The notes beneath the pieces were generated by a model. The model saw only the letters and a list, made by a program, of their open reading frames with translations. It was not told the origin of the DNA and did no database searches. 39,699 nucleotides of DNA from Thermococcus sp. Lineage in GTDB: Archaea > Methanobacteriota_B > Thermococci > Thermococcales > Thermococcaceae. The position numbers were made by a program, and so were the translations under genes. Within the stretch, counting starts at the first letter, position 1. Each line of letters begins with the position of its first letter. Location: positions 1-39,699 of the forward strand of contig NZ_WANV01000015.1 in the NCBI RefSeq assembly GCF_015521605.1, in the 5' to 3' direction. Below, one piece after another: positions 740-18,895 of this stretch.

Positions 740-1037
740 TGAGCAAGGAGTACGGCCGGTGGGACTTCCCTCAAGGGGAAGTACCAAATATCCGTCCGGG
801 GTTTAGTCGGGATGTCGGGCCTGCCTTACCCCCGAGGGGTCCGCCTTTCGGCGTTTCCTCGGGAGCGCACCTTTTTGTGACCCGGGCTGGAGGGCGGGGT
901 TCATGAGTGGGTGCTTTGCACCCTGTCCCCCCGACGCCGCCGTCTTGGCGCCCGGGTGTTTCGCGCCCTGTTCGGGCGCTCCACCCAATAGGGGTGAACC
1001 CCAGCAGTGAAAAATTTTTGCAAAACCCCTCACCGGG
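740..1037 (-). other. pre-rRNA leader with GC-rich processing helices
   Basis: This stretch lies between the 16S 5' end and the rRNA TATA box and is very GC-rich. It contains several self-complementary segments, for example GGGTGC-TTT-GCACCC near 917-933 and a CCCCGAGG/CCTCGGGG-type helix near 831-864. In archaea the 16S leader pairs with the spacer 3' of 16S to form the bulge-helix-bulge processing stem. The 3' partner is outside the window, so the exact stem cannot be drawn. No protein gene is seen here. Confidence 0.7.
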
Positions 1038-18790: not shown

Positions 18791-18804
18791 AAAGCTTTTA
18801 AGAC
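18791..18804. promoter_or_regulatory. divergent promoter: rimI (minus) and C/D RNA (plus)
   Basis: AAAGCTTTTAAGAC reads TCTTAAAAGC on the minus strand, 25 bp from the leaderless rimI ATG. On the plus strand it offers CTTTTAAG about 30 bp before the start of the C/D RNA. As at rfcS/kbl, one A/T core could serve both directions. Confidence 0.5.
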
Positions 18805-18834
18805 TTGAGGAAGACCTCATCCGGGGTGGCCACC

Positions 18835-18895
18835 CCTCGTGATGAGCACTCTCGAACCTGACCGCGGGATGATGACCGGATTCCTGGCTGATTCT
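18835..18895 (+). ncRNA. box C/D guide RNA (2'-O-methylation)
   Basis: The four boxes occur in order with canonical archaeal spacing: C GTGATGA (18839-18845), a 12-nt guide, D' CTGA (18858-18861), a 7-nt spacer, C' ATGATGA (18869-18875), a 12-nt guide, and D CTGA (18888-18891). Such RNAs assemble with L7Ae, Nop5 and fibrillarin and direct methylation of the target base opposite the fifth guide base before D or D'. Guide 1 would target GTTCGAGAGTGC (5th base G) and guide 2 CCAGGAATCCGG. Neither target occurs in the 16S part present here. The RNA lies in the rimI-herA gap, where no protein gene competes. Confidence 0.85.

Follow-up and report, generated by a model that had tools for sequence, protein, structure and literature searches.

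Between the divergent genes rimI and herA, this Thermococcus genome carries a short stretch of box motifs, and the question it raises is which guide RNA is encoded there and which RNA that guide would modify. An earlier note on the window (the whole 39,699-nucleotide stretch of DNA analysed here) had described a canonical C/D sRNA with two 12-nt guides and a 7-nt D'-C' spacer, and had left the modified RNA open.

A C/D guide RNA in the rimI-herA gap

The description holds. The boxes occur in the order C-D'-C'-D and all four match the consensus (RUGAUGA for C and C', CUGA for D and D') without deviation; the guide, spacer, and guide lengths of 12, 7, and 12 nt compare with an archaeal dual-guide norm of roughly 10-13-nt guides and a D'-C' spacer of a few nucleotides. 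The features of the locus are as follows.

18791-18802 (+): putative BRE/TATA element, AAAGCTTTTAAG, motif only, near-symmetric
18823-18836 (no strand): perfect 14-nt palindrome, GGGGTGGCCACCCC, directly 5' of the sRNA; predicted leader hairpin or DNA operator
18836-18892 (+): C/D box guide RNA sR5 (RF01304), from an Rfam covariance match
18839-18845 (+): C box, GTGATGA, exact RUGAUGA, read from the sequence
18846-18857 (+): D' guide, GCACTCTCGAAC, 12 nt; predicted target 23S rRNA G2371 (G013 numbering)
18858-18861 (+): D' box, CTGA, exact CUGA
18862-18868 (+): D'-C' spacer, CCGCGGG, 7 nt here and 3-8 nt in relatives
18869-18875 (+): C' box, ATGATGA, exact RUGAUGA
18876-18887 (+): D guide, CCGGATTCCTGG, 12 nt; predicted target 23S rRNA G2404 (G013 numbering)
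18888-18891 (+): D box, CTGA, exact CUGA

A strict regular expression for the four boxes, run over both strands, has a single match in the window, at 18839 (+). The covariance search that the earlier note had proposed as a check leads to the same RNA: in an all-Rfam scan (cmscan), sR5 matches 18836-18892 over the whole model (1-53) with 48.7 bits against a gathering cut-off of 40 (E 2.5e-8; 1.1e-10 in a narrow search). The segment 18836-18892 (+) is thus very probably the Thermococcus orthologue of the archaeal C/D guide RNA sR5, and presumably a two-site guide for 23S rRNA.

The neighbourhood is also as claimed: the minus-strand gene is rimI (TIGR01575) and the plus-strand gene herA (NF040819), both over their curated cut-offs. 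Beyond rimI lies a tRNA-splicing endonuclease gene (TIGR00324), likewise on the minus strand and over its cut-off. The sRNA occupies the gap between the two divergent genes, upstream of herA and on the same strand.

Predicted target sites in 23S rRNA

The earlier note had derived both target complements correctly and was right that the 16S portion present holds no target, neither guide having a good match there. It found none because the genome's own 23S is absent from the assembly and the 16S is cut off: a search for rRNA in the assembly returned no LSU rRNA, and the 16S is only a fragment at the window edge (1-739, minus), truncated by the contig start; the remainder of the operon, 23S included, seems to be missing from the assembly. 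Just upstream of the 16S, and on the same strand, lies an H/ACA guide RNA, Pab19 (RF02794), at 876-979 (minus; 99.1 bits against a cut-off of 55), which matches the leader snoRNA before the T. kodakarensis rRNA operon (PMC4247193).

The complement search was run on the 23S rRNAs of relatives, whose target sequences the genome's own 23S is presumed to carry, and it yielded duplexes of 10 and 11 bp. The D' guide pairs with TATCGAGGGTGC through positions 3-12 from the D' box (10 consecutive bp, one G-U), the two positions adjoining D' being unpaired in this species; the D guide pairs with TCAGGAATCCGC over 11 consecutive bp, with one G-U at the edge. In archaeal C/D RNPs, the modified base is the one paired with guide nucleotide five, counted from the D or D' box. 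By this rule, the predicted modified bases are most likely 23S G2371 (D' guide) and G2404 (D guide) in G013 numbering, 33 nt apart. In an E. coli 23S alignment, the sites correspond to 2279 and 2312 of the strain aligned; the P loop of that strain presumably starts two positions after its place in standard numbering, which would place them at about G2277 and A2310. We place the D' target on the 3' side of H81, the hairpin that follows the P loop, and the D target in the next stem (H83/84). Among the papers searched, none names the sR5 targets or helix 81.

With thresholds taken from the observed duplex pair, guide shuffling gave 3 of 5000 pairs with duplexes as good and no more than 100 nt apart. 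Singly, the D' duplex was equalled in 528/5000 shuffles (around 10%) and the D duplex in 380/5000 (around 8%). Either guide alone is weak evidence for its predicted site; it is the two nearby sites, together with co-variation, that carry the case.

All of the 23S rRNAs read (19) share one D target sequence. The D' target varies between genera at two positions, and the guide follows. At target position 10, Thermococcus has T with guide A, and the Pyrococcus-type genomes (G004, G006, and G008), G073, and G087 have C with guide G. At position 6, A is found with guide T in Thermococcus and G087; where the target has G, the guide has C in G073 and a wobble T in the Pyrococcus-type genomes. In G004, G006, and G008, too, both guides align to the 23S segment found for Thermococcus. 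The Pyrococcus-type D' duplex is weaker, with one internal mismatch, and in G006 the 23S site ranks only second by the score used.

The question left by the first reading can thus be regarded as closed, with both guides assignable to the 23S hairpin region just after the P loop, 33 nt apart, and with compensatory changes among relatives. Maps of Thermococcus rRNA modification would gain one well-supported double guide with co-variation evidence. In the proposed mechanism, sR5 would be transcribed upstream of herA and bound by L7Ae at C/D and C'/D', with Nop5 and fibrillarin joining afterwards; each guide would then pair with 23S rRNA, and fibrillarin would methylate the 2'-OH of the base opposite the fifth guide nucleotide, at G2371 and G2404 (G013 numbering). 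Pairing of the two guides with adjacent hairpins may also delay the folding of these hairpins.

Distribution, upstream elements, and rival explanations

Across the Thermococcaceae, sR5 matches with E≤0.001 occur in 76 of 94 genomes, covering all six genera, and exceed the cut-off in 60 of the 94; some of the weak matches are other C/D RNAs, above all the many in genus g3. The C'-guide-D module, with up to two mismatches allowed, is found in 64/94 genomes, mostly with none, although in six of these 64 the only or extra matches have two mismatches and are possibly due to chance. The reversed control pattern gave 4 matches in total. Copies hardly differ in the D guide core GGATTCCTG, and conservation of the boxes extends over Thermococcus, Pyrococcus, and further genera of the Thermococcaceae. 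The earlier note had held that its reading would fall if the boxes were not conserved in related Thermococcus genomes: conservation stands for most of them, but the RNA is missing from some. Most Thermococcus genomes have sR5 in the rimI-herA gap, and Pyrococcus-type copies sit in other gene contexts.

Absence is best read in G015 and G035 (HerA 87% and 78% identical), in which the rimI-herA gap holds no C/D RNA, and in G054, which is also without sR5; only in these three is the synteny of loss readable, since herA matches in most sR5-less genomes are just 45% identical. The 23S target segments are unchanged in G014, G015, G023, G027, G034, G035, G045, and G059, and a pattern search found no replacement D' module in sR5-less genomes. 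Because several Thermococcus lineages are without sR5, those checked keep the rRNA site, and no replacement module was found, sR5 itself is dispensable, and the predicted methylation is either not essential to the lineage or supplied by a guide outside the patterns used. There is thus a natural experiment: the rRNA site is identical in genera and species that have sR5 and in others that do not.

The single-mismatch matches to the D' module that were tested, in G000, G075, and G078, all derive from sR39, another C/D sRNA already known. In the genome studied here (G000), sR39 lies at C34:30092-30113 (minus; 77.1 bits), with a CRISPR array (CRISPR-DR6 repeats) at a distance of about 1 kb.

Two elements precede the sRNA. 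The BRE/TATA-like element is conserved upstream of sR5 in Thermococcus genomes, and at 18791-18802 it could serve both the sRNA (+) and rimI (-), in which case rimI would be nearly leaderless. Part of it probably serves rimI, since its CTTTTAAG core is kept in G015 and G035, both of which are without the sRNA. The second element, the palindrome, has a 12-nt core that occurs once in this genome and in 27 of the 94 genomes, all of the same genus and nearly always in single copy. The core lies directly upstream of sR5 at most places and is absent from other genera; exceptions, with the 12-mer at another place or no sR5 found, include G029, G030, G055, G067, and one of two occurrences in G050.

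The distance from the TATA-like element to the C box is 35-39 nt with the palindrome, against 25-29 nt in several Thermococcus genomes that have no palindrome and 21-25 nt in most of the other genera read. Given this longer distance in the genomes carrying it, the palindrome should lie where transcription starts, forming a leader some twelve nucleotides long. Its outer pairs vary, often remaining complementary, and the version in G032 is one base shorter and still folds. The leader fold (-8.2 kcal/mol) is no better than its own shuffles (z -0.19); likewise, no predicted structure surpassed shuffled sequence, which is what one expects of a C/D RNA. Since G017 and G038 keep sR5, promoter, and palindrome with no rimI or herA detected within about 1.5 kb, the palindrome would go with the sRNA and not with rimI/herA. 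It may be either an RNA hairpin or a DNA operator. A tentative and rather doubtful proposal is that a 5' leader hairpin of the GGGGUGGCCACCCC type, specific to the lineage, precedes most Thermococcus sR5 copies, perhaps as a processing, stability, or regulatory element undescribed for archaeal C/D sRNAs.

Three other explanations of the locus bear weighing against a two-site 23S guide. That box motifs have come together by chance in intergenic DNA is vanishingly improbable: the shortness of the motifs, and nothing else, speaks for it, whereas among 300 simulated sequences (first-order Markov, of window length, both strands) the strict pattern occurred in none and a relaxed pattern in one, the family model provides an independent match, and the orthologues refute it. 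A real C/D guide RNA might, on the other hand, have some other main target for one or both guides (tRNA, 16S rRNA, or none), its D' pairing with 23S being incidental. The D' complement does start with GTTCGA, similar to the tRNA T loop, and the guide positions left unpaired with 23S are the two nearest D'. With one mismatch allowed, however, the six matches to this complement elsewhere in the genome are at about the level of the reversed control, and for none of them does any evidence point to rRNA or tRNA. Moreover, the guide nucleotides that would give the GTTC match vary by species (AAC, AAT, AAG, AAA), whereas those pairing with 23S co-vary with it, and a different main target is accordingly unlikely.

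The conserved element could also act mainly in cis, as an L7Ae-bound kink-turn leader of herA or as a palindromic operator for rimI/herA, with any guide role secondary. Its position shortly before herA, in the same orientation, and the conservation of the palindrome would suit such a role, and Jager et al. suggested that some predicted 5'-region snoRNAs of T. kodakarensis may be cis elements (PMC4247193). Against this, sR5 is retained together with its promoter and palindrome in G017 and G038 away from any detected rimI or herA, the Pyrococcus-type copies have other surroundings, the constraint on both guides is linked to their targets, and herA in G015 and G035 retains a leader without sR5. 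A cis-acting element is thus already disfavoured and seems highly unlikely.

Relation to known C/D RNAs

Given the Rfam match and the matches and modules across the family, the sR5 family was described before and the RNA of the window is its copy in this genome, ordinary for heat-loving archaea. There is little surprise in this; apart from the targets and the pattern of presence and absence, the result is routine annotation. In G024, which we take to be T. kodakarensis KOD1, sR5 lies at 2002457-2002514 (minus strand). For T. kodakarensis, a close relative, 54 C/D sRNAs have been verified (PMC4247193) and 61 putative ones listed, and 26 have circular reads (PMC9014305). The main-text table of circular RNAs in the latter paper has no entry at the G024 position of sR5; the sR5 region shows no clear terminal stem, in keeping with what that paper says of C/D RNAs that are not circular (PMC9014305). 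RiboMeth-seq results for P. furiosus are stated to be deposited in GEO and are absent from the article text (PMC7758197).

Among catalogued families, sR7, sR51, sR28, sR19, and snoPyro_CD share the box architecture of the window RNA; however, their guides are unrelated and they score far under their own cut-offs here. With Rfam sR5, in contrast, the boxes and the D guide core are identical, and the D' guide covers the same 23S segment. The window RNA departs from Rfam sR5 in a D' guide altered to fit the Thermococcus 23S sequence, in a D'-C' spacer of 7 nt as against 3 nt in the Pyrococcus-type copies, and in the additional palindrome upstream of its 5' end.
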